64,000 nt of DNA from Tolypothrix bouteillei VB521301 (GTDB lineage Bacteria; Cyanobacteriota; Cyanobacteriia; Cyanobacteriales; Nostocaceae). Both the position numbers and the translations under genes were made by a program. Where the stretch lies: the NCBI RefSeq assembly GCF_000760695.4, contig NZ_JHEG04000001.1, forward strand, positions 1,270,707 through 1,334,706, read 5' to 3'. Shown piece by piece: positions 1,099-18,060 of the stretch; the first letter of the stretch is position 1, and each line of letters begins with the position of its first letter. The notes under the pieces are model-generated. The model was not told the DNA's origin. It saw only the letters and a list, made by a program, of their open reading frames with translations, and did not search any database.

Positions 1099-2364
1099 AT
1101 GCCCGATAATCACAAGCAACCCAAAAAAGATGATGCAGTACTCGGAGGACAATCGCCACCTCCAGTAGAAGGAGCAGTTTTAGGAGGAATCGAGGGCGTT
1201 AAACGTCGTTTGTGGAATCCGGTTGTTGACGTTAGAAGGGCTGCGGTTGAAGAAGCCCTGAATTATGGCGATGCTGGATTAGATGTGGTAATTCAGGCTT
1301 TGAAGGATGAAGCTAAGCAAGTACAGCGTTTTGCTTATCGGCTATTGCGCCCAAGGGAAGAACAAAAAGTCAAGCTTGCTTTACAACAATATACACCATG
1401 GGATTTGGTTGAACGGTTAGCTCAGTACCCGGGGTATCAAGGTATGCACGCTACGAGATTTGCCAATCGTCAAGTGGCGGATTTTGACCCTAATGTTGGC
1501 ATCACCGATCCCATTGGTACAGCTTATGCGATTCGATGGACTTACGATCCGGAAGAATATGCCATCGCAAAACTCGCAAGTCTTTTAGAAGACCCCAAAG
1601 CAAAACAATTGGAAGCTTTAGTATTTGGAATGTGGAGTGAGGAAGTATATAGTGAAAGTCCACCCAGCATTGTGAATGCTTTAGTGAATGCAAAAAATCA
1701 GCTTCCCAATCTCAAAGCAGTCTTCATTGGAGATATTCCCTCCGATGAATGTGAAATTTCTTGGATTAAGCAAACGGATATTAGCCCGATTTTAAGGGCT
1801 TATCCTCAGCTAGAGATATTGCAAGTTCGTGGCGGAGATGGTTTAGAATTTTGCCCGCCTGTACGACACGATCGCTTACGAGCACTTATTGTTGAAACGG
1901 GTGGGTTAAGTCGGACAACAGTTGCTCAAATCTGTAACTTGAAACTACCAGCCCTAGAGCATCTTGAACTGTGGTTTGGTAGTGAAGACTACGGTGGAGA
2001 TTGCTGGGTTGAAAATTTGAGCCCTATTCTTGATGATTTAGTGTTCCCGAATTTGACTTACTTGGGACTCCGCAACAGCCAGTTTTCTGATGAAATGGTT
2101 CATGCGATTGTGCGATCGCCTTTAATGAATTCCATCAGCGTACTTGATTTATCAATGGGGACTTTGAGTGATGAAGGGGCTGAAGTATTACTCAACTCTC
2201 CGGTTGTGAATGAACTCGACATCCTCAATGTCTCAGAAAACTTTCTCTCAGACGAAACGATCGAACGCTTGTCTCAGATCGAAGTTCAAGCGATCGCCAA
2301 CAAGCAAAAAGAAGAAGACGAAGACGACTACATTAGTTCCCGTTACTGCTCTGTTTCGGAGTAG
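1099..2364 (+). CDS. HEAT/leucine-rich-repeat protein, STM4015-like (paralogue 1)
   Basis: This 421-residue protein is one of several related copies here. Residues 1-38 hold the signature with two LGG motifs (DAVLGG, then GAVLGG followed by VKRRL). A HEAT-like helical part follows (about 38-95). The rest resembles the STM4015 family: FDPNVGITDPIGTAYAIRW at about 135-155, then ribonuclease-inhibitor-type leucine-rich repeats (LEHLELWFG, LTYLGLRNS, VLDLSMG, LDILNVSEN). After an acidic stretch (EEDEDD) the protein ends in RYCSVSE, a tail shared by the other full-length copies. The matching radical SAM, ATP-grasp and sulfatase-fold genes lie 10-15 kb downstream. No catalytic residues are visible, so a scaffold or substrate role is more likely than an enzyme role. 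The family call is firm and the function is inferred. Confidence 0.85.
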   Translation: MPDNHKQPKKDDAVLGGQSPPPVEGAVLGGIEGVKRRLWNPVVDVRRAAVEEALNYGDAGLDVVIQALKDEAKQVQRFAYRLLRPREEQKVKLALQQYTPWDLVERLAQYPGYQGMHATRFANRQVADFDPNVGITDPIGTAYAIRWTYDPEEYAIAKLASLLEDPKAKQLEALVFGMWSEEVYSESPPSIVNALVNAKNQLPNLKAVFIGDIPSDECEISWIKQTDISPILRAYPQLEILQVRGGDGLEFCPPVRHDRLRALIVETGGLSRTTVAQICNLKLPALEHLELWFGSEDYGGDCWVENLSPILDDLVFPNLTYLGLRNSQFSDEMVHAIVRSPLMNSISVLDLSMGTLSDEGAEVLLNSPVVNELDILNVSENFLSDETIERLSQIEVQAIANKQKEEDEDDYISSRYCSVSE

Positions 2365-2483
2365 TATCCTTTAATGGTATATTTGTACTACAAAAACTGC
2401 GATTGACGGATCGCATGTCTAAGTCAGATGTGCAACCAATCTTAGGTTATGAGAATTTCAACTTGAGGGCAAGGAGTCAGAAG

Positions 2484-3713
2484 GTGATACCAGACAATCA
2501 AAATCAACCCAGTAAATTTGACGTAGTATTGGGTGACAGAGCCCCGCTTCCCATAGGAGATGTTGTTTTGGGAGGAATGGAAGGAGTGAAGCGTCGCTTG
2601 AAAAGTACAGTTGTAGAAGCACGACTTACGGCTCTTGGCGAAGCATTCAATTATGGAGAAGCAGGTATAAACCTGATAATTGAAACACTGAAAGATGAAT
2701 CAAAGCAAGTGCGGCTTACGGCGGCTCGACTGTTGCGGGAGAAAGGAAGCCAAAAGGAAAAGCAGATATTAATAGATTGCGATCCCTGGTTGTTTTTCAC
2801 AACATTAGAGGGTTGGAATCAATACACAGCAGTGCGAACAACAAAACAACTTGTAAATTTGTTGCAAGAGCCGCAAATAACCACTTTAGAAGCTTTAGTG
2901 TGTGAAATTGAGAAGAATGGTTCATATGGGAAATTTCAAGATTTTGTCAACGTCCTGGTTGCTACTCCCGAGAGGTTACCGTATCTTAAAGCATTATTTA
3001 TGGGAGACCCAAGCGATTCCAAACAATGGAAGCGAGGATACTCCCAAATATGTCTAAGTAATATTAATCCAATTCTTAAAGCCTTTCCTCATTTGCAGGT
3101 ATTGCATCTTTGCGGATTCTTTGGTCATGCTAGCAATCCAATTTTAAAAAACAAACAAAAGCAAGAACTATTACAAATTCGCAATCGTGATGGTTCTCCA
3201 GTAGTTTCTAAAAAAACACACACAGAATTAAAAACATTGATTATTGAAGGAGCAGATTTAACAGACGAACACGTGGCTGAAATTTGCCAGCTTGAGTATC
3301 CATCTCTAGAATATCTTGAATTGTGGCTGGGCAGAAGAGATACGGAGAAAATAGTTAAAAGTTTAGCTCCTCTTCTGTCAGGTAAATCGTGTCCCAATTT
3401 GATTTACTTAGGATTGATTGGTAGTGAAAATACAAATGCAATTGCTAGAGCTATATCTTGTTCGGAGATTATTAAACGCTTAAAGGTGCTAGATTTGGGA
3501 AAAGGCAAGTTGACCGTTGCTGGTGTTACAGATTTACTCAAATGCCCTACAATCGAGAACTTACACACTCTCAATGTTTCTGAAAATTGTTTGCGTCCAA
3601 TTGCAATTGAGCAATTGTCTCATATCAATTGTCAAGTCATTGCTAATTCTCAGTTCCATGACAGTTATCGCTTTGATGATGATAGCGCTCGCTATTATAC
3701 AGCATGGGAGTAA
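2484..3713 (+). CDS. HEAT/leucine-rich-repeat protein, STM4015-like (paralogue 2)
   Basis: Second paralogue. The frame is open from 2403 (TTG) and has an ATG at 2415, but similarity to the other copies begins at PDNQNQP. A GTG at 2484 lies one codon upstream of that, behind AAGGAG at a 7-base spacing. The codon matching the paralogues' ATG has become ATA, so GTG 2484 is the preferred start. The signature is slightly worn (VVLGD, then VVLGG with VKRRL). HEAT-like and leucine-rich repeats follow, but the DPxxGITDP segment of the other copies is missing, and an insertion rich in Lys, Asn and Gln sits in the middle (about residues 215-245). The tail is RYYTAWE, again the shared C-terminal pattern. 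It is divergent but intact. Confidence 0.8.
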   Translation: MIPDNQNQPSKFDVVLGDRAPLPIGDVVLGGMEGVKRRLKSTVVEARLTALGEAFNYGEAGINLIIETLKDESKQVRLTAARLLREKGSQKEKQILIDCDPWLFFTTLEGWNQYTAVRTTKQLVNLLQEPQITTLEALVCEIEKNGSYGKFQDFVNVLVATPERLPYLKALFMGDPSDSKQWKRGYSQICLSNINPILKAFPHLQVLHLCGFFGHASNPILKNKQKQELLQIRNRDGSPVVSKKTHTELKTLIIEGADLTDEHVAEICQLEYPSLEYLELWLGRRDTEKIVKSLAPLLSGKSCPNLIYLGLIGSENTNAIARAISCSEIIKRLKVLDLGKGKLTVAGVTDLLKCPTIENLHTLNVSENCLRPIAIEQLSHINCQVIANSQFHDSYRFDDDSARYYTAWE

Positions 3714-4985: not shown

Positions 4986-5594
4986 TTATTTAGAAAATGC
5001 TTGTACTCGGTCAATACAGCCCTGCTTTACTGCAGAAGCTAAAATGTCTTTAGCACCAAGTCGCTTAAAGTAAAGTGCTGCATAATTCCTCTGCCTTTGC
5101 GTACCGTTGAAAAGGTAATGTTCAATTCGTTTTTGTCCGTGTGGTGTATTGACCAAACTGAGAGTATAGTCAACAAGCTTACAAGTCGCGCTGTTCAGGT
5201 CATTCTCTAAACTTTCCATTAATGTATCGACATCAGACTCTCCTCCAGCACGTCCCATAGCGACAAAAGTGTCATACCTACTGCTTTTTTGAGTGTATTC
5301 CTCAAGTATCTGTTTCACTGCAGGCTCTTCTCGATAGACAAGTAGCACATAAGCAGCGTTCCTGACCATCCATAATCTATCTTCCAACGCCTGAATGACT
5401 AAATTCAAACCTGCTTCGCCATATTTCAGCGCCTCTTCTAGAGCAGCGATTTTTTGCTTGACCTCTGGATTTGCAAACCGTCTTTTAACACCTTCCAATC
5501 CTCCTAACACAACACCATTAACTGGGGCTGGGGATATTGCTTGACCACCAAGGACAGCGTCATCAACTCTGGGTCGATTCGTACTTTCTGGCAT
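4986..5594 (-). CDS. HEAT-only relative of the STM4015-like paralogues
   Basis: 202 residues on the minus strand. It opens with the same signature as its neighbours (DDAVLGG, then GVVLGG with VKRRF) and continues through the HEAT-like segment (IAALEEALKYGEAGLNLVI). It then departs: residues about 95-202 are further alpha-helical, HEAT-like sequence with no leucine-rich repeats and no RYxSVxE tail, ending RVQAFSK. This shows that the VLGG signature is a separate N-terminal module that can be attached to different repeat domains. Orientation is opposite to the other copies, so it has its own promoter or was inverted. It looks intact. Confidence 0.8.
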   Translation of the reverse strand: MPESTNRPRVDDAVLGGQAISPAPVNGVVLGGLEGVKRRFANPEVKQKIAALEEALKYGEAGLNLVIQALEDRLWMVRNAAYVLLVYREEPAVKQILEEYTQKSSRYDTFVAMGRAGGESDVDTLMESLENDLNSATCKLVDYTLSLVNTPHGQKRIEHYLFNGTQRQRNYAALYFKRLGAKDILASAVKQGCIDRVQAFSK

Positions 5595-6124: not shown

Positions 6125-6127
6125 TTG

Positions 6128-6832
6128 ATGACTTACACAGTTGAATTCTCTCCTAGTGCAAGAAAGATGTTTAAGAAATTACCTCAAGACTTGCAAGACC
6201 GTATACAACCAAAAATAGATGCTTTAGCCACAGAACCTCGGCCTAATGGGGTGAAAAAGTTGAAAGGCGAAGAAAATACCTATCGAATTAAAATTGGAAG
6301 TTATCGAGTAGTTTATGAAATAGAAGACGATGTATTGTTAGTTATTGTTATCAAAGTTGCAGGTCGGAAAGATGATTTGCCAGCATTAGAGTATTTAAAA
6401 TTGTGGTTTGGTCGATATTACGAATCCTCACACAGATCAAACTTATTAATTGATAGTTTGCTTCCCTTTCTTTTTAATGAGTCCTCTCCACACTTAAGTT
6501 ATTTAGGATTGCGTAGTAGTAAAAATGCTGATGAACTTGCTCGTGCTGTTGCGGAATCTCCAATAATTGAACGCCTCGCAGTACTGGACTTGTCTATGGG
6601 GAATTTAACAGACAAAGGAGCAAAAGCATTGCTCAATTCTCGAGCAACCAATCAACTTCACACTCTTAACATCTCTAACAACTGCGTATCTGCAAATATG
6701 ATTCAAGAGTTATCTCAACTGAATTGTCGAATCATAGCGAATGGACAGGAAGAAGTGCTGAAAGAGGGCTTGGAGCCTCACGTTACTGGGTATTATACGA
6801 GTGAGGCAACGCAGTCATTGGGCTCGTGTTAG
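6128..6832 (+). CDS. Chimera: RelE/ParE-type toxin fused to the C-terminal half of an STM4015-like LRR protein
   Basis: The first 80 or so residues are a nearly complete RelE/ParE toxin: YTVEFSPSARKMFKKLP, then GVKKLKGEENTYRIKIGSYRVVYEI and VLLVIVIKVAGRKD. A stop would normally follow within a few residues. Instead the frame runs directly into leucine-rich repeats at about nt 6373 (DLPALEYLKLWFG, LSYLGLRSS, VLDLSMGNL, LHTLNISNN), the same block that ends the neighbouring paralogues. The tail is worn: YYTSEATQSLGSC instead of RYxSVxE. A deletion apparently joined the toxin gene to the distal half of an LRR gene. Whether the toxin is still active is unclear. TTG 6125 is one codon upstream of the preferred ATG. 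Confidence 0.8.
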   Translation: MTYTVEFSPSARKMFKKLPQDLQDRIQPKIDALATEPRPNGVKKLKGEENTYRIKIGSYRVVYEIEDDVLLVIVIKVAGRKDDLPALEYLKLWFGRYYESSHRSNLLIDSLLPFLFNESSPHLSYLGLRSSKNADELARAVAESPIIERLAVLDLSMGNLTDKGAKALLNSRATNQLHTLNISNNCVSANMIQELSQLNCRIIANGQEEVLKEGLEPHVTGYYTSEATQSLGSC

Positions 6833-7943: not shown

Positions 7944-9095
7944 TATATCGTTTCGTAGTATTAATCTTGGACTAGAGGTGTGTTACGAACATGAAGTTAT
8001 GGGAATCATAACCTTAGTGTAATGCAGAAGTGAGGGGGCAATGCCAGACAATCAAAATCAACCCAAAGAGTTTGATGCCATTTTGGGCGGACAAACACCT
8101 CCTCCAATTGAGAGTGCTGTTTTGGGAGGACTCCAAGGGGTAAAACACCGTTTGACAAACCCAGCTCTAGAAGCACGGATTGCAGCTCTTTCCGAAGCAC
8201 TCAACTATGGAGAAGCAGGTTTAGATGTGGCAATTGATGCTTTGCAGGATACCGCAGAACAGGTGCAACGTTTTGCTTCGCGGTTGCTGCGGCAAAACGG
8301 AGGTGTTCGAGGAAAGCAAGCTTTGTTAAACCACGATCCATACCTGTTTTTCACTACATTTCAAGATTGGAAAACTGAGAATTTTCACCCTGATATTGGC
8401 ATTACCAACCCAAGCGAGACTGCATATGTTGTAAATTTTGAGCAGTTGAAGTTACTTTTACAAGATCCTCAAGCTTGCAAAATAGAAGCGTTAATCTGTC
8501 AGATGTGGGATTGCAATCATTCCGCCGACCTTTTTATTGATGAGTTGTGTGCATCTTACAAGCAACTGACCAGTCTCAAAGCTCTATTTATCGGCGCTCT
8601 TTACGAACCTGAGTACCTGAGTTTTTCACTCAAACTGTGCAATCTTAGCCCTATTGTGAAAGCTTTTCCCAATTTGGAAGTACTGCACGTATGTGGCAGC
8701 AAAGGCTTGGAATTCAGGCAGGTGAAGCACGATAACTTAAAGACGCTGATTCTTGACGTAAGTAACTTGGTGGACGATATCGATCAACTGAGCGGTCTCA
8801 ATCTACCAGCATTAGAATACCTTGATTTGTGGTTAGGTAACAATTGTTACGATAATAAAAATACTACTAATGTCCTAATGCCGATTCTTTCTGGCAAATT
8901 ATTTCCAAGACTGAGGTATTTAGGACTGCGTGGTAGCCAATATGACGATAAGATCGCCTATGCTATTGCACCTTCTGCAATAGTTAATCACCTCAAGGTG
9001 CTGGACCTTTCTAAGGGGACTTTACGTGATAAGGGCGCAGAAGCTTTACTGAAAAGTTCGGCAATCAATCGGTTACACACTCTCAATGTTAGTAA

Positions 9096-9124
9096 TACAG
9101 CAGTTTCCGATGTTATGAGGTACA
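9096..9124. repeat. Left end of the IS630 element (TA plus inverted repeat)
   Basis: TA target at 9096-9097, then the left inverted repeat, which matches the reverse complement of 10094-10122 with only a few mismatches, in its outer third. Confidence 0.85.
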
Positions 9125-9158
9125 GTTAGTATTAATAAAATCAAAAGATAATACTGTC

Positions 9159-9557
9159 ATGAAAGCATATTCAGTAGATATTCGAGAAAAAATAGTGGCA
9201 GCGCATATTGAGGAAAAAATCTCGATTCGTCAAGTAGCACTCAGATTTGCAGTGAGCAAAAGTTTAGTACAAAAGCTAGTAAAGCAACAAAAAAGTCATG
9301 GTAATTTACAACCATTAAAACCGGGTAAGCCACGATTTAGTCATCTGACAAATGCGGAATTAGAGTTAAGAGAACTAGTGTCAGAGAATCCGGATGCAAC
9401 AATAGTGGAATTCTGTGAATTATTTGCGGCAAAGACAGGTAATTGGGTGAGTCAGACGGCAATGTGTCGTTCTTTACAAAAATTAGGATTAAATCGCAAA
9501 AAAAAACATTGCGGAGTAGCCAAGCAGCAACTCCAAGAGTTCAAAAACTCAGAGTAG
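9159..9557 (+). CDS. IS630 transposase, N-terminal frame (helix-turn-helix)
   Basis: 132 residues carrying the DNA-binding part of an IS630 transposase: YSVDIREKIVAAHIEE, then ISIRQVALRFAVSKSLVQKLV (helix-turn-helix), and a second HTH-like region around ISQTAMCRSLQKLGLNRKKK. It reads in frame 0 and stops at 9557. The catalytic half continues in the -1 frame. A run of nine A at 9498-9506 in the overlap is a likely slippage site, so a fused transposase could be made by -1 frameshifting. The tail after the A-run (HCGVAKQQ...) is out of frame relative to the family. Confidence 0.85.
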   Translation: MKAYSVDIREKIVAAHIEEKISIRQVALRFAVSKSLVQKLVKQQKSHGNLQPLKPGKPRFSHLTNAELELRELVSENPDATIVEFCELFAAKTGNWVSQTAMCRSLQKLGLNRKKKHCGVAKQQLQEFKNSE

Positions 9558-10105
9558 AATATTGGGAAAAAGTCAAGGAGATAGAGCCAGAAAACTTGGT
9601 ATTTTTAGATGAAACAGGGGTAATACTGGGTTTAGCAAGAACGCATGCACGTTCACAAAAGGGAACAAGAGTATATGAAATGAAGCCATTTTACCGGGGA
9701 GCAAAAGTTACGGTGATTGGAGCAATAAGTCTTAAAAAAGTTGTGGCATTAATGACAATAAATAACTCAATGGATAGCCTAGCTTTTGAAGGATTTATTG
9801 AGAAGTTCTTATTGCCTCAATTATGGCCGGGAGCAGTAGTAGTTATGGATAATTTACCGGCACATAAACTAGCATCAATCGAACCAATGATTGAATCTGT
9901 AGGTGCAAAAGTCTTGTGTTTATCTCCATATTCTCCTGATTTTAATCCCATTGAATTATGGTGGTCACAACTTAAATCTTTTTTACGTACTTTTTCTCCA
10001 ACTACAACCGAAATGGTTGATAAAGTTATCTCTGTTGCTCTCGACTTGATGAATCCTCAACATTTAAAAAATTGGTTCACTAAGTGCTGTTATTGTACCT
10101 CATAA
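9443..10105 (+). CDS. IS630 transposase, C-terminal frame (DDE catalytic domain)
   Basis: The frame is open from 9443, but similarity to transposase starts only after the A-run at about 9507 (KTLRSSQ). The three catalytic acidic residues are visible: D in VFLDETGV, D in VVMDNLPAHK and E in SPDFNPIELWWSQLK. The domain is complete to the stop at 10105, so the element may be active if frameshifting joins the two parts. An internal start for a separate catalytic protein is not obvious: the residues encoded before 9500 (MGESDGNVSFF) are shadow sequence of the first frame. Confidence 0.85.
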   Translation: MGESDGNVSFFTKIRIKSQKKTLRSSQAATPRVQKLRVEYWEKVKEIEPENLVFLDETGVILGLARTHARSQKGTRVYEMKPFYRGAKVTVIGAISLKKVVALMTINNSMDSLAFEGFIEKFLLPQLWPGAVVVMDNLPAHKLASIEPMIESVGAKVLCLSPYSPDFNPIELWWSQLKSFLRTFSPTTTEMVDKVISVALDLMNPQHLKNWFTKCCYCTS

Positions 10106-10122: not shown

Positions 10123-10371
10123 ACTACATATCAAGGAAAATTGTGAAACGGTTTTCTCGGTTGAGTTGTCGAGTCATTGCCCAACCTCAAGATGACTACC
10201 GCTATGATTCTGTATGGGAGTAAATTCAAAGTGTAAAAGCAGGCACTGCAGTGCGCTGCGTATATCGCACCTTTATTTTTGATACGACTACTCGGTATTC
10301 CTAATGACTTGAGGACAGCGATAAACAAGCGAGACATCTGAAGCCGTATCGCCGAGCGTTTAACGGGGGTT

Positions 10372-10498: not shown

Positions 10499-11677
10499 AT
10501 GCCAGACAATCAAAATCAACCCAAAGAGTTTGATGCCATTTTGGGCGGACAAGCACCTCCTCCTGTTGAGAGTGCTGTTTTGGGAGGACTCCAAGGGGTA
10601 AAACACCGTTTGACAAATCCTGTTGTAGAAGTACGGATTGCAGCTCTTTCCGAAGCACTCAACTATGGAGAAGCAGGTTTAGATGTGGCAATTGATGCTT
10701 TGCAGGATACCGCAGAACAGGTGCAACGTTTTGCTTCGCGGTTGCTGCGGCAATATGGAGGTGTTAAAGGAAAGCAAGCTTTGCTTAACCATGACCCGTG
10801 TCTGTTTTTTACCACGTTCCAAGATTGGAAAATTGAGGCTTTCCCCGATTTTGGCATTACCGACCCAAGCGGAACTGCGTATGTTGTCAATTGCGAGCAG
10901 CTAAAGTTACTTTTGCAAGATCCCCAAGCTTGCAAGGTTGAAGCTTTAATTTGCGAGATGTGGGAGCGCTCTTATTACAAAGTTACTGACGAATTCTATG
11001 CTTTCGTCGAGACTCTCTTTGATGCTCGCCAGCATTTAACTCAACTGAGAGCTTTATTCATTGGTGACGCTTCAGCACAAGGATATATGAAATCTTACCT
11101 TGGGTTAGGTGATATCAGTTTGATTTTAGACGGGTACCCCAATCTGGAAGTGCTGCAACTTCGGGGTTTCTGTGGAGATTTACAGTGTAGTTCGTACCAT
11201 CACAATCTCAAGACACTCATTATCGAAACTTTGTACCTGAGTGATACAGCCCTAGACCAAATTTATGACCTCCAACTGCCTGCACTGGAGTATTTTGAGT
11301 TGTGGATTGGCAGAAGTGACCGTCTCGATCTCGCTCCAATTCTTTTTGATGAACTGTTTCCTAATTTAAGTTATTTAGGACTGCGTAGTTGTAGTTATAC
11401 GGATGGACTTGTCAGCTATATTGCACAGTCACCACTCATCAATCGCCTATCAGTGCTCGATCTATCAATGGGCGACTTAACCGATGAGGGAGTAGAAGCT
11501 TTACTCAACTGCCCTGCAATCGATCGTCTTCACACAGTCAACGTTGCTTATAATTGCGTGTCTGCAAGTGGAATTTCACAATTATCTCAACTGAATTGTC
11601 GAGTCGTTGCAGAGCCACAAGTAGAGGTATATGACCTAGGATGTGGAAGTGCTCGGTACTCTGTCCTGTATGAATAA
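10499..11677 (+). CDS. HEAT/leucine-rich-repeat protein, STM4015-like (paralogue 4)
   Basis: 392 residues, intact, and the closest relative of the interrupted gene upstream: the first 110 residues are almost the same. It has the signature (DAILGG, SAVLGG, VKHRL), a HEAT-like part, PDFGITDPSGTAYVVNCEQ, leucine-rich repeats (LEYFELWIG, LSYLGLRSC, VLDLSMGDL) and the tail RYSVLYE, a one-residue-shifted version of the shared tail. It ends 15 bases before the STM4014-type gene, so these are probably transcribed together. That makes it the copy most directly tied to the enzyme genes. A strong GAGGGGG precedes the ATG. Confidence 0.88.
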   Translation: MPDNQNQPKEFDAILGGQAPPPVESAVLGGLQGVKHRLTNPVVEVRIAALSEALNYGEAGLDVAIDALQDTAEQVQRFASRLLRQYGGVKGKQALLNHDPCLFFTTFQDWKIEAFPDFGITDPSGTAYVVNCEQLKLLLQDPQACKVEALICEMWERSYYKVTDEFYAFVETLFDARQHLTQLRALFIGDASAQGYMKSYLGLGDISLILDGYPNLEVLQLRGFCGDLQCSSYHHNLKTLIIETLYLSDTALDQIYDLQLPALEYFELWIGRSDRLDLAPILFDELFPNLSYLGLRSCSYTDGLVSYIAQSPLINRLSVLDLSMGDLTDEGVEALLNCPAIDRLHTVNVAYNCVSASGISQLSQLNCRVVAEPQVEVYDLGCGSARYSVLYE

Positions 11678-11692
11678 ACCAAAGGCGAGAAT

Positions 11693-12835
11693 ATGCTAGA
11701 ACTGGTCATCATCGCAAATCCAGAAAATCGTCGGGTTGGTTTCTTGCAACAGGCGCTAGAGTATTTCAGTTTACCACCTGCAACTGTTGTATCTTATGAA
11801 GACGCGATCGCAGGCAGAGAAACATTAGAACGTTTTGATGCACCCAACACCATCATCCGGTTTGATTCCCCTGAGAAAAACTTTGAGGTTGATAAAGCTA
11901 TTATTGCTGCGGGTGCAAATGTACTAGATGACGGTCAGTACCAACGCATCCATCCTGCTGATGCAATAAAATTAAGCTTCGACAAGGGGCTGATTCTTTA
12001 CCACCGCCAGTGGTATCTAGGATGGCAGTATCTATTGCAACAATGGGAAAAGCAACTCAAATGCCCAACAATGAATCATCCCGAAGATATTGCCGTAATG
12101 TTCGATAAACCCCGATGTCACGAAAGATTCAGCAGCTACGGAATTCCAGTACCGCGATCGCTTGGAATAATTAAAAACTACGAACAACTGCGCGAACAAA
12201 TGCGGGTGCAAGAGTGCGATCGCGTATTCGTGAAACTTGCCCACGGCTCTGCTGCTTCTGGAGTGGTTGCTTACCGTGCTACAGCACGAGGTGAATCCGC
12301 TATAACTACAGTAGAAAGAGTGCGAGAAGAAGGTCAAACCCTGCTTTACAACTCACGTAAAATTCGCCACTACACAAGCAGAGAAGAAATTAGTGACATT
12401 ATTAACATCTTAACAGCTGAGGGCGTACAGGTCGAAGAATGGTTACCAAAGGCACACCTGCAAGGGTGCGGATTCGATGTACGCGTGGTTGTCATTAACG
12501 GTCAAGCACAGCACGTCGTTGTGCGTTTGGGCAAAAGTCCCATGACCAATTTGCATTTGGGAAATGAGCGAGGTGACACTGAGGAATTTTTAGCCACAGT
12601 TGGACAAGAGAACTGGGAAAGCATGAAACGAACTTGTGAAGCCGCAGCCGCCTTGTTTCCCAACACCTTATACTGTGGTGTGGATTTACTCATCGCTCCC
12701 AACTTTCGCGATCGCGCCATTTTGGAAATCAATGCTTTTGGCGATTTACTACCGGGAATTTTATGCAATGGAATAGATACGTATACCAGTGAAATCAAAG
12801 CAATGCTAGCAAAAACAACCCCATGCTTAACATGA
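11693..12835 (+). CDS. STM4014-type ATP-grasp protein
   Basis: 380 residues. The N-terminal part (LVIIANPENRRVGFLQQAL) is a Rossmann-like pre-ATP-grasp domain. The ATP-grasp core shows FVKLAHGSAASGVVAY (nucleotide-binding lysine region, about residues 178-193), VEEWLP (about 245) and the metal-binding end AILEINAFGDLLPG (about 342-357). ATP-grasp enzymes join a carboxylate to an amine, thiol or hydroxyl through an acyl phosphate. It is placed between an LRR gene and the sulfatase-fold gene as in the STM4011-STM4015 cluster, and overlaps the next gene by 4-13 bases. The substrate is not known; the acid-ending tails of the LRR proteins are a candidate (inference). Confidence 0.85.
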   Translation: MLELVIIANPENRRVGFLQQALEYFSLPPATVVSYEDAIAGRETLERFDAPNTIIRFDSPEKNFEVDKAIIAAGANVLDDGQYQRIHPADAIKLSFDKGLILYHRQWYLGWQYLLQQWEKQLKCPTMNHPEDIAVMFDKPRCHERFSSYGIPVPRSLGIIKNYEQLREQMRVQECDRVFVKLAHGSAASGVVAYRATARGESAITTVERVREEGQTLLYNSRKIRHYTSREEISDIINILTAEGVQVEEWLPKAHLQGCGFDVRVVVINGQAQHVVVRLGKSPMTNLHLGNERGDTEEFLATVGQENWESMKRTCEAAAALFPNTLYCGVDLLIAPNFRDRAILEINAFGDLLPGILCNGIDTYTSEIKAMLAKTTPCLT

Positions 12836-13629
12836 ATCAAATCGTCGGGACTCACGACATTCTCTTTCTCACCTTAGATACTCTACGATACGATGTTGCT
12901 AAAAACTTGATGTCACAAGGACGCACCCCGAATTTAGCAACCGTTATGCCTCAAGGAGGTTGGGAAGAACGCCATTCTCCAGGAAACTTCACCTATGCTT
13001 CCCATCAAGCCTTTTTTGCAGGTTTTTTGCCCACACCAGCAACACCAGGGATACATTCAAGGCTCTTTGCTTTGGGATTTGAGGGAAGTACGACTACCAC
13101 GGAAAAAACGTGTGTCTTAGAAGGAGCTAATATTATCAGTGGATTTGCTGAAAAAGGCTATCATACAATTTGTATTGGTGGTGTTGGCTTTTTCAACAAA
13201 CTTAACCGCTTGGGAAATGTTTTTCCGTCCCTCTTTGCTGAAAGTCACTGGAGTCCAGAGTTGGGAGTCACCAACCCTAACTCTACAGAAAATCAAGTAG
13301 CACTTGCCCAACAAATCTTAGCCAACACACCTCAAAACCAACGCGTATTTCTCTTTATCAATATCTCAGCCCTGCATCAACCCAACTACTTTTACCTTCC
13401 TGGTGCTAAAACAGACACCCTAGAAACTCACGCTGCTGCTTTGGAATATGTTGACAGTCAATTAGGCAAACTCTGGGAAGCATTCCAACAACGTGCTTCC
13501 ACTTTCTGTATTGTCTGCTCAGATCACGGAACAACCTACGGTGAGGATGGTTATACAGGTCATCGCGTGAGTCACCCTTTAGTATGGACAGTTCCTTACA
13601 CGGAGTTCATCTTACCCACAACAACCTAA
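12823..13629 (+). CDS. STM4013-type sulfatase/alkaline-phosphatase-fold protein
   Basis: 268 residues. The fold is seen in DILFLTLDTLRYDVA (metal aspartate), NFTYASHQAFFAGFLP (nucleophile region), and CSDHGTTYGEDGYTGHRVSH (metal Asp and His). True sulfatases have C-x-P-x-R, with the Cys becoming formylglycine. Here the matching place has Thr/Ser, so a phosphohydrolase, phosphotransferase or related role is more likely than sulfate ester hydrolysis. It starts inside the end of the ATP-grasp gene: ATG 12823 or ATG 12832, the second forming an ATGA overlap with the stop. Translational coupling is likely. No signal peptide is present, so it acts in the cytoplasm. Confidence 0.85.
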   Translation: MLNMNQIVGTHDILFLTLDTLRYDVAKNLMSQGRTPNLATVMPQGGWEERHSPGNFTYASHQAFFAGFLPTPATPGIHSRLFALGFEGSTTTTEKTCVLEGANIISGFAEKGYHTICIGGVGFFNKLNRLGNVFPSLFAESHWSPELGVTNPNSTENQVALAQQILANTPQNQRVFLFINISALHQPNYFYLPGAKTDTLETHAAALEYVDSQLGKLWEAFQQRASTFCIVCSDHGTTYGEDGYTGHRVSHPLVWTVPYTEFILPTTT

Positions 13630-13683
13630 ATCATTCGTAAAATTCACTCTTCCCTCTTTTCTTCGTGCTCTTTGCGACGCCAG

Positions 13684-13722
13684 ATGCTTCAACGGGGGGA
13701 ACCCCCGCACGGCGCTGCTCTC
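13684..13722. repeat. GC-rich palindromic dispersed repeat (copy 1)
   Basis: Contains TGCTTCAACGGGGGGAACCC, whose GGGGGGAACCCCC core can fold. An inverted copy lies at 54717-54756. It sits between the STM4013-type and STM4012-type genes, followed by a CTCTGCGGTT-type intergenic motif at 13829-13845. It is a dispersed genomic repeat rather than a gene. Confidence 0.6.
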
Positions 13723-13869
13723 CGCAATGCACTGGCTCGTCTTTGCGGTTAATAACTTTTATCCATCACATTCCTCAAAATAACTACCTAAATTAAATAC
13801 CAAAAATCCCCATTCTCTCTTTCCTCTGTGTCCTCTGCGGTTCAAAAAAATAAATTATTAAATGCACCA

Positions 13870-15231
13870 ATGACAAACCTACTCAATCAAAATCCCAAAA
13901 CCCAAACCCCAAATCTAAAAACCCTGCTTGAAAAATCCCCCTACCAAGCTTACGTCTACTCGTACCCCCATAAAACAGCCTACCGTCCTCTTACCCCACC
14001 TCTACCCTTCAACGAAGTATGGTCCCAACAAGATAAGCGATCGCTGTTTCTCTACATCCACATCCCCTTTTGTGAAATGCGTTGCGGGTTCTGCAACCTG
14101 TTTACCACTGTCACTCACAATGAGGACTTTGTTACCCAATACGTCCGCACGGTTCAACGACAAGCACAGAGAGTCCGATCTGCATTAGGAGAAGCATCAT
14201 TTGCTCGTTTTGCACTAGGTGGCGGTACACCAACTCAGTTACCCATCCACCAACTCGAAGCAATTCTTAATGTTGCTGAGGAAACAATGGGTGCAAGTTT
14301 GCAAAATATTCCCGTTTCCGTAGAGATGTCACCAGAGACAGCAACTCAAGATAAACTTAAACTGTTACGCGATCGCGGAGTTGACCGTGCTAGCATTGGT
14401 GTCCAAAGTTTTATTGAATCAGAAGTTCTGGCAATTCACCGCCGCCAAAGCACCGCTCAAGTGGAAGCAGCCCTGACTCGAATGCAAGAAGTTGGCTTTC
14501 CCACGATTAACATTGACCTTATATATGGATTACCCGGACAAACTGTTGATACATGGTTGCAAACCATACATCATGCTCTCCGCTTTCAACCAGAAGAAAT
14601 TTACTTGTATCCTCTCTATGTAAGACCCCTAACAGGATTGGGGTGTTCCGATAAAGAATGGGATGATATCCGTTTGGCTTGTTATCGGGAAGGGCGATCG
14701 CTGCTCCTATCTTCTGGTTACACTCAAGTTTCCATGCGGATGTTCAAAGCTTCCCCCTCCTCTCCCTTGTCCCCCGATAGCCCCATATACTGCTGTCAAG
14801 CAGATGGTATGGTTGGTCTGGGTTGCGGCGCACGTTCTTACACAAACACCTTACATTACTCCAATGAGTATGCTGTAGGAGCGAAAGAAGTTCGTCATAT
14901 TCTCCAAGCGTTCATCGAAACACCTGATGAATCCTTTGATTTTGTTCGCTATGGCTTTGAACTAGATGAAGAAGAACGCCGCCGACGCTACATTTTATTA
15001 TCTCTACTTTCCGATGAAGGTTTTAATCTTGACGCTTACTATCAACAATTTGGTACAGATATGTTTGAGGATTTTCCAGAACTTTCTCAACTCTTCTCGC
15101 TTAATCTAGCGACACAGAATGAACAAATCTTGCACCTGACGGAAGTTGGAATTGAACGTTCAGATACTATTGGCGCTTGGTTATTTTCTCAAAGGGTTCA
15201 GCAATTAATGCAGTCTTACAATTTGAAGTAA
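13870..15231 (+). CDS. STM4012-type radical SAM protein (HemW-like)
   Basis: 453 residues from ATG 13870. A GTG at 13828 is in frame, but the sequence between is a common intergenic repeat (TCCTCTGCGGTTC). The radical SAM cluster is C-x3-C-x2-C at C68, C72 and C75 (IPFCEMRCGFCNLF), preceded by LYIHIPF as in HemN/HemW. GGGTPTQLP is the SAM-binding glycine motif, and VSVEMSPET plus INIDLIYGLPGQT follow. The C-terminal part (about 340-453) is HemN_C-like. Family members near STM4011 and STM4013 form one conserved set. Its reaction is unknown; the fold allows radical chemistry or haem handling. It is not a coproporphyrinogen oxidase by context. Confidence 0.87.
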   Translation: MTNLLNQNPKTQTPNLKTLLEKSPYQAYVYSYPHKTAYRPLTPPLPFNEVWSQQDKRSLFLYIHIPFCEMRCGFCNLFTTVTHNEDFVTQYVRTVQRQAQRVRSALGEASFARFALGGGTPTQLPIHQLEAILNVAEETMGASLQNIPVSVEMSPETATQDKLKLLRDRGVDRASIGVQSFIESEVLAIHRRQSTAQVEAALTRMQEVGFPTINIDLIYGLPGQTVDTWLQTIHHALRFQPEEIYLYPLYVRPLTGLGCSDKEWDDIRLACYREGRSLLLSSGYTQVSMRMFKASPSSPLSPDSPIYCCQADGMVGLGCGARSYTNTLHYSNEYAVGAKEVRHILQAFIETPDESFDFVRYGFELDEEERRRRYILLSLLSDEGFNLDAYYQQFGTDMFEDFPELSQLFSLNLATQNEQILHLTEVGIERSDTIGAWLFSQRVQQLMQSYNLK

Positions 15232-15233
15232 AC

Positions 15234-15290
15234 TAGCTAATGGCTAATGGCTAATGGCTAATGGCTAATAGCTAATGGCTAATAGCTAAT
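15234..15290. repeat. Heptameric tandem repeat (STRR), CTAATGG/CTAATAG type
   Basis: About eight units of seven bases. The block is flanked by a direct duplication: the last bases of the STM4012-type gene and what follows (about 15201-15234) recur with few changes at 15292-15326. Short tandemly repeated repetitive sequences of this kind are typical of filamentous cyanobacteria. Confidence 0.85.
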
Positions 15291-15360
15291 CAGCAAATAA
15301 TTCAGTCTTACAATTTAAAGTAAACTACAAATTGAATTCAAAAACCTTAATTTAAAAGTA

Positions 15361-16617
15361 ATGATTAATGAATCGAATCAACCTAAAGAATCTGACGCAG
15401 TACTTGGAGGAAAAGCACCACCACCAGTACAAGGGGCTATCTTGGGTGGAATTGAAGGTGTTAAAAATCGTTTATCGAGTCCTATCCTTGAAGCACGAGT
15501 ATCAGCACTTCAGGAAGCAATGAATTATGGGGAAACTGGGTTAGATTTAATTATTGGGGCTTTAGAATCCAAGTTTAGAAAGGTACGACGCGCAGCAGTA
15601 CAATTGTTGCAGCAAAGAGACGAACCATCTGCCAAGTTATCGCTATACAATTACAAATTTTGGAGTAGTTTTGAACGCTTAAACGGTCTTCCACCAAGTC
15701 ATGCAACCTCATTTGCCAACCGAAAAGTTATAGAATTCGATCCATCAGTAGGTATAACTGACACTATTGGAACTGCATACGCTTTAAGGGTTCACAGGCG
15801 TCAACCCGATATGAATATAACAGATAAGCTACAGATATTCCTACAGGATTCTCGTACAAACGAAGTTGAAGCATTGGTTGTAGGCAATTGGTTCAATGGG
15901 ACAGGAGAATACAGTTCCCTTTTTATTGTCAATGCACTGGTTGATGCTTGTGAAGAACTCACTAACTTAAAAGCTTTATTTATTGGTGATATTGAGGATT
16001 CGGAAGACATGATTTCTTCAATAGAGCAGAGTAATATCAGTCTTATCTTTGTAGCGTATCCTAATTTAGAAGTTTTGAAAATTCGCGGCGATCGCTATCG
16101 CGGACCTTATAACGGAGGACTCGAAATCGAGCCACTTCGACATGATAAATTAAAAGCGCTCATTGTAGAATCTGGTGGATTGCGCCATGAAGTAGTTTCT
16201 CAAATTTGCAACCTTGAACTACCAGCCCTGGAGTATTTGGAATTATGGTTGGGGAGAGATGACTATGGTGGAAGTTCATCTATTTCTGACTTAATGCCAA
16301 TTCTTTCTGGAGTGTTTCCTAAACTTAAGTATCTAGGGCTGCGTAACAGCGAATATTCTGATGATATTGCCTTTGCAATAGTGAATTCTCCAATTATTAA
16401 GCATCTGATAGAGTTAGACCTTTCTATGGGAAATTTAGGAGATGAAGGTGCTGAAGCCTTGCTCAATTGTCCAGCAGTCAATCAACTTGATACTCTTAAC
16501 GTTTCTAACAATTGTTTAACTCGTGCGATGCTTTCTCGATTACAAGATTTAGAAATTGAAACGATTGCTATCCCTCAAAAACAGTATACCTGGCGCTATT
16601 GTTCTGTTGCTGAATAA
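15361..16617 (+). CDS. HEAT/leucine-rich-repeat protein, STM4015-like (paralogue 5)
   Basis: 418 residues, closest to paralogue 1 at 1099-2364: both have HATxFANRxVxxFDPxVGITD near residues 120-140 and the IGTAYA motif. The signature is DAVLGG, GAILGG and VKNRL. The leucine-rich repeats include LEYLELWLG, LKYLGLRNS, ELDLSMGNL and LDTLNVSNN, and the tail is RYCSVAE. It lies between the two radical SAM genes, 38 bases before the STM4011-type start, so it is a probable operon member. No catalytic motif is seen. Like paralogue 4 it is a likely direct partner or substrate of the enzymes. Confidence 0.88.
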   Translation: MINESNQPKESDAVLGGKAPPPVQGAILGGIEGVKNRLSSPILEARVSALQEAMNYGETGLDLIIGALESKFRKVRRAAVQLLQQRDEPSAKLSLYNYKFWSSFERLNGLPPSHATSFANRKVIEFDPSVGITDTIGTAYALRVHRRQPDMNITDKLQIFLQDSRTNEVEALVVGNWFNGTGEYSSLFIVNALVDACEELTNLKALFIGDIEDSEDMISSIEQSNISLIFVAYPNLEVLKIRGDRYRGPYNGGLEIEPLRHDKLKALIVESGGLRHEVVSQICNLELPALEYLELWLGRDDYGGSSSISDLMPILSGVFPKLKYLGLRNSEYSDDIAFAIVNSPIIKHLIELDLSMGNLGDEGAEALLNCPAVNQLDTLNVSNNCLTRAMLSRLQDLEIETIAIPQKQYTWRYCSVAE

Positions 16618-16655
16618 TTTAAATTATACCTTTAAACTCATAAGTGAGGTTATCA

Positions 16656-17525
16656 ATGCATCTTACTATTCTCTATCGCGGGTCTTTAATTAGTTGCAAC
16701 TACGGTTGCGAATACTGTCCCTTTGCTAAACGACAGCAGTCACCAAAAGAATTAGCTGTTGATAAACAAGAATTGGAAAGGTTTACAGATTGGATTGCCC
16801 AACATTCACAGCACAATTTCTCAATTTTGTTCACGCCTTGGGGTGAAGCGCTGATCCATCAGTGGTATCAACAAGCTTTGATAAGACTAACACAAATGCC
16901 TCACGTCCATAAGGCAGCAATTCAAACGAATCTTTCGTGTCAACTCGATTGGGTGGAAGAATGCAACAAGAACCGTCTTGCACTCTGGACAACGTTTCAT
17001 CCAGAATGGGTGTCGCGCCAGCGCTTCCTCGCTAAGTGTCTGGAACTTGATAAGCGGGGTATCCGTTTCAGTACGGGTGTTGTTGGTTTCCCTCAATTTA
17101 AAGATGAGATTGCTGCTCTACGTCATGAATTACCACAACACATCTACTTGTGGATTAATGCAGTTAAGCGAGAACTTGGCAATTTGTCTAAAGAAGACAT
17201 GAATTTTTTCAAGTCTATCGACCCGCTTTTTCAGATAAATATTCACCATTACCCCAGCTTTGGTTATGCTTGTCGTGCTGGAAAATCTGTGATTTCTGTT
17301 GATGGTGATGGCACTATACGACGCTGCCACTTTATTAAAGAACCAATTGGAAACATTTACGACCCCAAGTTTGAAGAAGCATTGTATGACCGACCCTGTA
17401 CCAACACAACTTGTCACTGTCATATTGGTTACGTACATTTAGAGTATTTACAACTAGATAAAGTGTTTGGAAATAGCATTTTGGAAAGAATACCTGTTGA
17501 TTGGGATAGAGAAATTGTGGTATAG
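16656..17525 (+). CDS. STM4011-type radical SAM protein with auxiliary-cluster cysteines
   Basis: 289 residues from ATG 16656, which has GTGAGG upstream; the in-frame GTG at 16644 is part of that site. The SAM-cluster motif is C14-x3-C18-x2-C21 (SCNYGCEYCPF). The C-terminal third has further cysteines in an arrangement like a SPASM/twitch domain: YACRAGK, then GTIRRCHF, then PCTNTTCHCHIGY. Enzymes with such extra clusters often modify peptides or proteins, which fits a cluster built around repeat proteins with a shared tail. Only one base separates its stop from the start of cysC, so the two are translationally coupled. Confidence 0.87.
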   Translation: MHLTILYRGSLISCNYGCEYCPFAKRQQSPKELAVDKQELERFTDWIAQHSQHNFSILFTPWGEALIHQWYQQALIRLTQMPHVHKAAIQTNLSCQLDWVEECNKNRLALWTTFHPEWVSRQRFLAKCLELDKRGIRFSTGVVGFPQFKDEIAALRHELPQHIYLWINAVKRELGNLSKEDMNFFKSIDPLFQINIHHYPSFGYACRAGKSVISVDGDGTIRRCHFIKEPIGNIYDPKFEEALYDRPCTNTTCHCHIGYVHLEYLQLDKVFGNSILERIPVDWDREIVV

Positions 17526-17526
17526 T

Positions 17527-18060
17527 ATGCAACAGAAACAGCAAGGATTCACAATCTGGTTAACTGGGTTAAGTGGTGCAGGCAAAACAACTATTGGTCA
17601 AGCTGTAGCACGGGAATTACAATTCCAAGGTTACAGAGTGACAGCCCTTGATGGTGATGTGATGCGCCAAACCCTATATAGGGACCTGGGATTTAGCAGA
17701 AGCGATCGCCAGGAAAATATTCGGCGTATTGGTTCTCTTGCACGTACTCTTACGTCTCAAGGTGAAGTTGTGGTAGTCTCTACTATCTCTCCATATCGCG
17801 TTCAAAGAGATGCAATGCGACATTCCATTAAAGATTTTATCGAAGTCTATGTCAATGCGCCTCTTGCCGTCTGCGAGCAACGGGATGTAAAAGGTTTATA
17901 TAAAAAGGTACGCTCTGGAGAAATCACAAATTTTACTGGTATTGATGAACCATATGAAGTACCACTCCATCCAGAAGTTGAATGTCAAACAGATTGTGAA
18001 ACTCTTGATAAGAGTGTCACTAAAGTCTTGGCGAAAGTTAAAGAATTAGGTTATTGCTGA
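17527..18060 (+). CDS. cysC: Adenylyl-sulfate (APS) kinase
   Basis: 177 residues from ATG 17527. It makes PAPS from APS and ATP. The P-loop GLSGAGKTT is at about residues 13-21, LDGDVMRQTL at about 40, RQENIRRIGSLARTL at about 60, and VSTISPYRVQRDAMR and GLYKKVRSGEITNFTGIDEPYE follow, all typical of CysC. An upstream in-frame start at 17467 lies inside the preceding gene and is not needed. The unusual point is the context. No other sulfate-assimilation gene is nearby; it is joined to a radical SAM gene and follows a cluster containing a sulfatase-fold protein. It may supply PAPS for a sulfation step (inference) or simply be displaced. Confidence 0.93.
   Translation: MQQKQQGFTIWLTGLSGAGKTTIGQAVARELQFQGYRVTALDGDVMRQTLYRDLGFSRSDRQENIRRIGSLARTLTSQGEVVVVSTISPYRVQRDAMRHSIKDFIEVYVNAPLAVCEQRDVKGLYKKVRSGEITNFTGIDEPYEVPLHPEVECQTDCETLDKSVTKVLAKVKELGYC

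Follow-up and report, generated by a model that had tools for sequence, protein, structure and literature searches.

A conserved C-terminal tail on the leucine-rich-repeat proteins of an STM4011-STM4015 cluster in Tolypothrix bouteillei, and its possible chemistry

The cluster and the shared tail of its leucine-rich-repeat proteins

To characterize an expanded STM4011-STM4015 gene cluster in the cyanobacterium Tolypothrix bouteillei VB521301, we analyzed a 64,000-nucleotide stretch of its genome (contig NZ_JHEG04000001.1, positions 1,270,707 to 1,334,706; hereafter the window). As described in the original prediction, which was made from the sequence alone, the genes for STM4014 (11693..12835), STM4013 (12823..13629), STM4012 (13828..15231, with an uncertain start that may lie nearer 13940) and STM4011 (16644..17525) are interleaved with STM4015-type leucine-rich-repeat (LRR) genes between positions 10499 and 17525, all on the plus strand. 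The four proteins exceed the cut-offs of their NCBIfam models (428, 439, 620 and 424 bits, respectively). Five LRR copies were found, likewise on the plus strand: copy 1 (1099..2364, 421 aa), copy 2 (2403..3713, 436 aa), copy 3 (8041..9129, a reading frame open as far as an insertion sequence (IS) element), copy 4 (10499..11677, 392 aa) and copy 5 (15361..16617, 418 aa). Only copy 1 passes the 275-bit cut-off of the STM4015 model (NF038076, 309 bits); copies 2 to 5 score 141, 184, 163 and 259 bits. A search of the whole genome (9.95 Mb) returned seven STM4015 matches, six in the window and one elsewhere at E 0.61. In a protein search, the named close relatives came from Nostoc, Calothrix and other cyanobacteria.

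The predicted RY-x4-E tail is present on each of the five LRR copies: RYCSVSE (2341-2361) in copy 1, RYYTAWE (3690-3710) in copy 2, RYSVLYE (11654-11674) in copy 4 and RYCSVAE (16594-16614) in copy 5. Copy 3 is interrupted by IS630-type transposase frames (9159..10105, plus strand), and its tail RYDSVWE with the stop codon lies past the element (10200..10223, plus strand), where the frame reads ..DYRYDSVWE-stop. The linkers ahead of the tail differ between the copies, as had been noted, and form a variable, Asp/Glu-rich stretch across the loci examined. The LRR parts of the five copies share only 37-55% pairwise identity.

We compared 89 loci, consisting of 80 loci from species genomes (at least this number, from a search with an STM4012 profile), eight plasmid loci opened among 22 plasmid matches and one viral contig that carries the cluster (L100). 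The families are widespread, with at least 569 stretches encoding an STM4012 relative in one genome collection. All five genes were present in 69 of the 89 loci (62 of the 80 species-genome loci), and an STM4015 open reading frame (ORF) in 77, with more than one in 30 of these 77 (in one, L094, through a wrong-frame overlap). The final residue was Glu in 121 of the 126 STM4015 ORFs, a set that includes the overlap in L094 (3075-4445). Position -6 held Tyr in 103 and Phe in 15, position -7 held Arg in 101, and the typical end can be written R-Y/F-x-x-V-x-E. A Y/F-x4-E terminus occurred in 117/126 STM4015 ORFs compared to 17/9,934 other ORFs of the same loci, the latter being stop-to-stop frames of which many are not genes, and in none of the ORFs for STM4014 (0/75), STM4013 (0/88), STM4012 (0/89), STM4011 (0/81) or the neighboring DUF6745 protein (0/34). 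Given this difference and the low identity of the LRR parts, the shared tail exceeds chance. The five STM4015 ORFs without a final Glu, one of them the wrong-frame overlap, all share a locus with a tailed sister.

The original prediction depended on the tail recurring outside this genome, and it did recur in STM4015 proteins of many phyla. Examples are WRYVALGE in Deinococcus, RYVAVAE in Streptomyces, WRYPSLTE in Paenibacillus, IYMNAMYTE in Salmonella, RYISVSE in Aureispira and RYAAVGE in Myxococcus. Among the best 120 of 744 relatives from the protein database, 108 end in R-Y/F-x4-E, and the remaining 12 include fragments and a lineage ending in RYYSSYG. These results support the tail as a genuine feature of STM4015 that is under selection in many phyla, where it accompanies the enzyme genes.

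Some STM4015-like proteins have other ends. In the RYYSSYG lineage, Gly replaces the final Glu (L132, L140 and L148; relatives P0060, P0065, P0067, P0077 and P0080), and in the three loci read these copies adjoin Glu-ending ones. In genus g119 (L131, L133, L136, L141, L145 and L147), a second STM4015-like copy that ends in ..RQQALN or similar has lost the tail and stands beside a tailed orphan copy. Further, proteins by the cluster that end in WD40-like repeats match the cyanobacterial STM4015 profile (L153, L157, L160, L161, L165 and other loci of the window's family), presumably through a common N-terminal AVLGG module.

Loci with a single STM4015 ORF (n = 47) indicate which residue of the tail is constant. 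Glu was last in 47/47, while position -6 held Tyr in 36, Phe in 8, Ser in 2 and Asn in 1, and position -2 held Ser in 22, Gly in 11, Ala in 9, Thr in 4 and Tyr in 1. We conclude that what stays constant chemically is the free C-terminal Glu rather than the hydroxyl of Tyr or a Ser/Thr. The original prediction had named the tail with its Tyr, Ser/Thr and Glu as the modified site. Its Tyr and Ser/Thr parts do not hold as a general site, since Phe replaces Tyr in 8/47 and Ser or Asn does so in 3/47, and position -2 is Gly or Ala in 20/47. The Glu part stands as far as constancy is concerned, and the predicted fold of STM4014, described below, suggests the same residue. No conserved Ser, Thr or Lys position was found in the tail among the 126 STM4015 ORFs.

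Tail and enzyme genes also go together across genomes. In the window's family (192 genomes), STM4015 was found in 31 genomes, STM4014 in 29 and STM4012 in 27, and each of the 31 STM4015-bearing genomes keeps at least one copy ending in Glu. STM4015 occurs without STM4014 in two of them (G323, 84% complete, and G276, about 100% complete). In the order of the Myxococcus genome G361 (145 genomes), STM4015 was found in 63 and STM4014 in 60. C-termini were read in 47 of these 63, 30 by the best match and 17 in genomes fetched largely because a match ended before the end of the profile. A tailed copy was present in 45 of the 47, together with STM4014 in 44 and with STM4012 in the remaining one (G457). 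G497 and G502 lack both STM4014 and STM4012, and their only STM4015 matches (E 1e-40 or better) are tail-less. The association between tail and enzyme gene gave P = 0.003 for STM4014 alone and P = 0.0009 for either gene (Fisher's test; G497 and G502 are sister lineages, and the completeness of these genomes is unstated). Eight loci have STM4012 with no STM4015 or STM4014 nearby (L031, L035, L036, L051, L061, L063, L065 and L090), and in the genomes of seven of the eight STM4015 is found elsewhere, as is STM4014 in seven of the eight. This genome-wide tracing left out L052, L055, L057, L085 and L094.

Folds and conserved residues of the enzymes

The predicted ATP-grasp protein was borne out for STM4014 by fold and by catalytic residues. 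K181, D262, R264, R278, D331, N347, G350 and D351 are kept in 72/72 sequences, and E345 and N286 in 71/72. Sequence matches to solved structures were weak, with two short stretches each: a 7-sequence profile matched LysX best (1uc8, 1uc9 and 3vpd; E about 1.5e-5), then biotin carboxylase and RimK, and a 60-sequence profile matched RimK first and then LysX. The NCBIfam model rimK_fam scored 36.7 bits, below its cut-off of 143.4. For the predicted structure (predicted local distance difference test, pLDDT, 95.5), the first Foldseek match was ArgX with bound LysW (3vpb, E 4.6e-13), followed by PsnB, LysX and RimK. VIA-align scored ArgX at 23.6 (2.7 A over 272 residues), RimK at 23.0, LysX/ArgX at 23.0, LysX at 22.7 and glutathione synthetase at 22.0, where scores within 1 were treated as tied. 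No graspetide ligase was among the 50 VIA-align entries listed, which excludes nothing, since Foldseek finds them. RimK acts on the end of ribosomal protein S6. According to PMC10433800, the gamma-carboxylate of the C-terminal Glu of LysW is where LysX attaches an amino group, and the E54A exchange in the haloarchaeal carrier ArgW leads to arginine auxotrophy. The closest folds to the STM4014 model, ArgX, RimK and LysX, are C-terminal-Glu ligases, which suggests that STM4014 may be directed to the tail Glu. STM4015 is acidic (median isoelectric point, pI, 4.5) and STM4014 basic (median pI 8.3).

Two radical S-adenosylmethionine (SAM) proteins, one of them with SPASM-like extra cysteines, had been predicted, and both were recovered. 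In STM4012, C44, C48 and C51 of the CX3CX2C motif are present in 86/86 sequences. Its closest solved structure is HemN (1olt, 183 bits over most of the length), with NocN next at 120 bits; it passes the cut-off of the STM4012 model, and with 158 bits does not reach that of NCBIfam hemN (325). In STM4011, C18, C22 and C25 (CX3CX2C) are invariant in 80/80, and the extra cysteines C210, C228, C252, C257 and C259 are present in 79-80/80. These are five, compared to seven in the full SPASM pattern. The C-terminal part of STM4011 matches SkfB weakly (E 5.5e-4). No cobalamin-binding domain was found in the cluster proteins scanned.

A known phage-defense system was considered as well. PADLOC gave partial matches to the two radical SAM proteins only (PDC-M51A at 39 bits; pVip at about 20 bits) and no match for the other four cluster proteins scanned. 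On plasmids of Rhizobium (L015) and Cupriavidus (L019), a remote STM4012 relative is followed by a class I methyltransferase and the other cluster genes are absent; this is a different HemN-like system.

For STM4013, the original prediction of a phosphatase/sulfatase-fold protein held as to the fold. The alkaline phosphatase superfamily fold and the metal-binding Asp/His residues are present, and the structural neighbors include phosphoethanolamine transferases, phosphoglycerol transferases and sulfatases. A role as a formylglycine sulfatase is unlikely. Formylglycine chemistry needs Cys or Ser, and the corresponding position, that of the nucleophile, holds Thr57 in 83/83 sequences, within a stretch aligned to the nucleophile region of nucleotide pyrophosphatase/phosphodiesterase (NPP). 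Since this Thr is invariant, phosphorus chemistry is the simpler guess. In 12 of the 80 species-genome loci (L030, L032-L036, L043, L046, L049, L059, L060 and L063; a weaker relative in L098), the gene immediately upstream of STM4013 encodes a phosphatase of the haloacid dehalogenase (HAD) type, which fits this guess. The HAD-bearing loci span Myxococcota, Planctomycetota, Bacteroidota and others.

A possible chemistry at the C-terminal glutamate

We propose, with the balance of probability about even, that STM4014 links an amine to the Glu at the C-terminus of the LRR protein and that the HemN-like and SPASM-like radical SAM enzymes and the phosphatase-fold enzyme with its putative Thr nucleophile then act. 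STM4015 would be the protein substrate, and its acidic C-terminal arm would offer the RY-x-x-V-x-Glu end to the enzymes and carry the Glu to the basic STM4014. STM4014 would activate the Glu carboxylate with ATP as an acyl phosphate and join an amine, probably an amino acid, a step modeled on LysX/ArgX with LysW and on RimK with ribosomal protein S6. STM4012 and STM4011 might then rework either the group so attached or the tail end itself, and STM4013, together with the HAD phosphatase in some phyla, might add or remove a phosphorus group. The conserved LRR part could serve as the docking or recognition surface. Segments such as LeLWLG, LGL and LdLsmG recur in it from cyanobacteria to actinobacteria in an alignment of 100 STM4015 ORFs above 250 bits, all selected for ending in E, so that this alignment is no independent evidence for the Glu. 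The product may stay on STM4015 as a terminal prosthetic group or be released; as no peptidase for its release came to light, it could be the LRR protein in its modified form.

Several findings weigh against this proposal. The graspetide ligase PsnB is nearly as close to STM4014 as ArgX in the Foldseek search, and STM4014 has GSxASG in place of GSWGR, which PMC10433800 describes as the LysW-gripping motif of LysX/ArgX (the alignment of STM4014 to LysX, as printed, stops at GS). Enzymes and tails do not always coincide. G308 keeps tails, STM4014 and STM4011 and has no STM4012; L055 has a tailed STM4015 and no STM4014 within its 17 kb locus; and at L078, STM4014 is present and STM4013 was not found. 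In the window's family, 17 of 103 STM4015-like ORFs (those above 250 bits, fragments included) have no final Glu, among them the RYYSSYG lineage, and six enzyme-bearing genomes of the Myxococcus order (G463, G464, G466, G467, G469 and G477) have a tail-less extra copy beside tailed ones. G497 and G502 are sisters with LRR proteins 64.5% identical, so their loss of the tail counts as one event. In addition, the STM4015 profile extends into the tail, and tail-less relatives may therefore be under-sampled. The lone STM4015 of G276, finally, ends in the nearly intact RHCSVTE even though STM4014, STM4012 and STM4011 are absent from this genome.

The retained tail of G276 would be expected if the tail were a docking or recognition end only, such as an adaptor or degradation signal, with the enzymes making a small molecule or modifying another target and the LRR part tethering or regulating them; the LRR segments conserved across phyla agree with this as well. 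We nevertheless regard such a role as quite improbable, as it makes the near-absolute Glu (121/126) and the ArgX/LysX/RimK fold of the partner a coincidence, and as several STM4015 ORFs in 30 of 77 loci suit substrates better than a tether. A modification of tail side chains, in the manner of a ribosomally synthesized and post-translationally modified peptide (RiPP), could take the form of a graspetide-like ring that STM4014 closes between the Glu side chain and a second tail residue, a Glu-Tyr joining by the radical SAM enzymes or a decarboxylation of the Glu side chain by the HemN-like enzyme. PsnB and MdnC, both graspetide ligases, are among the nearest Foldseek folds of STM4014, STM4011 has its SPASM-like cysteines, and STM4012 is closest to HemN (183 bits), which decarboxylates propionate groups. 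A ring partner is not evident, however, as no Ser, Thr or Lys is conserved and Tyr is Phe in 8/47, and RiPP cores are usually variable, whereas in STM4015 it is the end that stays the same and the body and linker that differ. We consider this explanation unlikely.

As a special case of the proposed ligation at the Glu, the LRR protein might take part in a carrier cycle of the LysW type, in which cleavage frees a small amino acid derivative and the LRR protein serves again. The acidic carrier, its C-terminal Glu and the ArgX-like ligase speak for such a cycle. It appears rather unlikely to us, since the zinc ribbon and the EDWGE end of LysW are absent and a recycled carrier needs no expansion into copies with diverging LRR bodies. 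A release peptidase did not appear in the gene order or in the 14 largest neighbor groups viewed, although one could be encoded elsewhere.

The cluster is not a LysW system, as the zinc-binding domain and EDWGE are missing. On present evidence, it would work like one, as a new variant of C-terminal-Glu carrier chemistry. It shares with LysW/ArgW and LysX/ArgX an acidic carrier, a C-terminal Glu, an ATP-grasp ligase of the same fold and further pathway enzymes alongside. It differs in that an LRR protein (about 280 to over 400 aa) takes the place of a zinc-binding mini-protein with Cys, that the end of this carrier is RYxxVxE, and that the partners are radical SAM and phosphatase-fold enzymes, with no release enzyme seen. 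Unlike RimK, which has a ribosomal target, STM4014 is linked with a pair of radical SAM enzymes and an LRR family of its own. Pearlins, the 3-thia-amino acids of the PEARL pathway, use a tRNA-dependent ligase and a cobalamin radical SAM enzyme, in contrast to the ATP-grasp protein found here. They resemble the proposed scheme in that chemistry on the C-terminus of a carrier polypeptide is followed by a radical SAM step, as described in PMC9303977. Graspetide systems (PsnB, MdnC) likewise employ an ATP-grasp ligase of similar fold. Graspetide cores, however, carry acceptor Thr, Ser or Lys residues besides Asp/Glu, and the STM4015 tail has no conserved acceptor of this kind.

More tentatively, and with considerable doubt, STM4015 might represent a new class of protein-bound chemistry platform, on which the Glu is loaded by an ArgX-like ligase and converted by two radical SAM enzymes to a covalent terminal cofactor or signaling group. 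Such a platform would extend across Cyanobacteria, Myxococcota, Actinomycetota, Planctomycetota, Deinococcota, Bacteroidota and enterobacteria, with extra copies in genomes where several LRR bodies need it. The NCBIfam STM4011-STM4015 models that match the window genes name families after Salmonella loci and define no function, and no title about this cluster was listed in the literature searched, where two papers name single genes in tables. For these widespread families, the proposal provides a named residue (the Glu) and a named first enzyme (STM4014). If it is true, the five-gene cluster suggests an undescribed protein-anchored chemistry, and the idea of an amino-group carrier, based on a small zinc-binding protein, would come to include a repeat protein joined to radical SAM chemistry.

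Remnants and neighboring genes

Two tail-less STM4015 remnants, unmentioned in the original prediction, lie between copies 2 and 3. One (4986..5594, minus strand) is the N-terminal part of an extra copy. The other (6125..6832, plus strand) is a C-terminal LRR part, without an intact tail, that is fused in frame behind a ParE-toxin-like domain. Directly behind STM4011 lies an APS kinase-like gene (17467..18060, plus strand). APS kinase-like ORFs also occur within loci of five other genomes (L168, L057, L065, L084 and L088), and the gene is possibly an accessory to the cluster.

Our survey of neighboring genes viewed one example from each of the 14 largest groups of ORFs of at least 100 aa, many of which are spurious frames, and established no conserved transporter, peptidase or regulator among them. 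Most large groups reflect the shared synteny of Actinomadura-type genomes. One group of ABC-transporter ATPases occurs in 15 loci, of which 13 are actinobacterial; such genes are so common that this may be chance. It is the HAD group that clearly crosses phyla.

A DUF6745 protein and a protein of about 98 aa occur together beside the cluster in 34 of the 89 loci (e.g., L012:9182-10479 and L016:2653-3978). DUF6745 was considered as a candidate second tailed substrate; it terminates in a conserved Y-x-P-x-x-[EQ]-T or a similar sequence, the last residue is T in 32/34 and not E, and the DUF6745 protein of L012 has an LRR-like N-terminus. One locus titled Comamonas (L034) shows a Myxococcus-type gene order with near-identical neighbors, and the record may be mislabeled.

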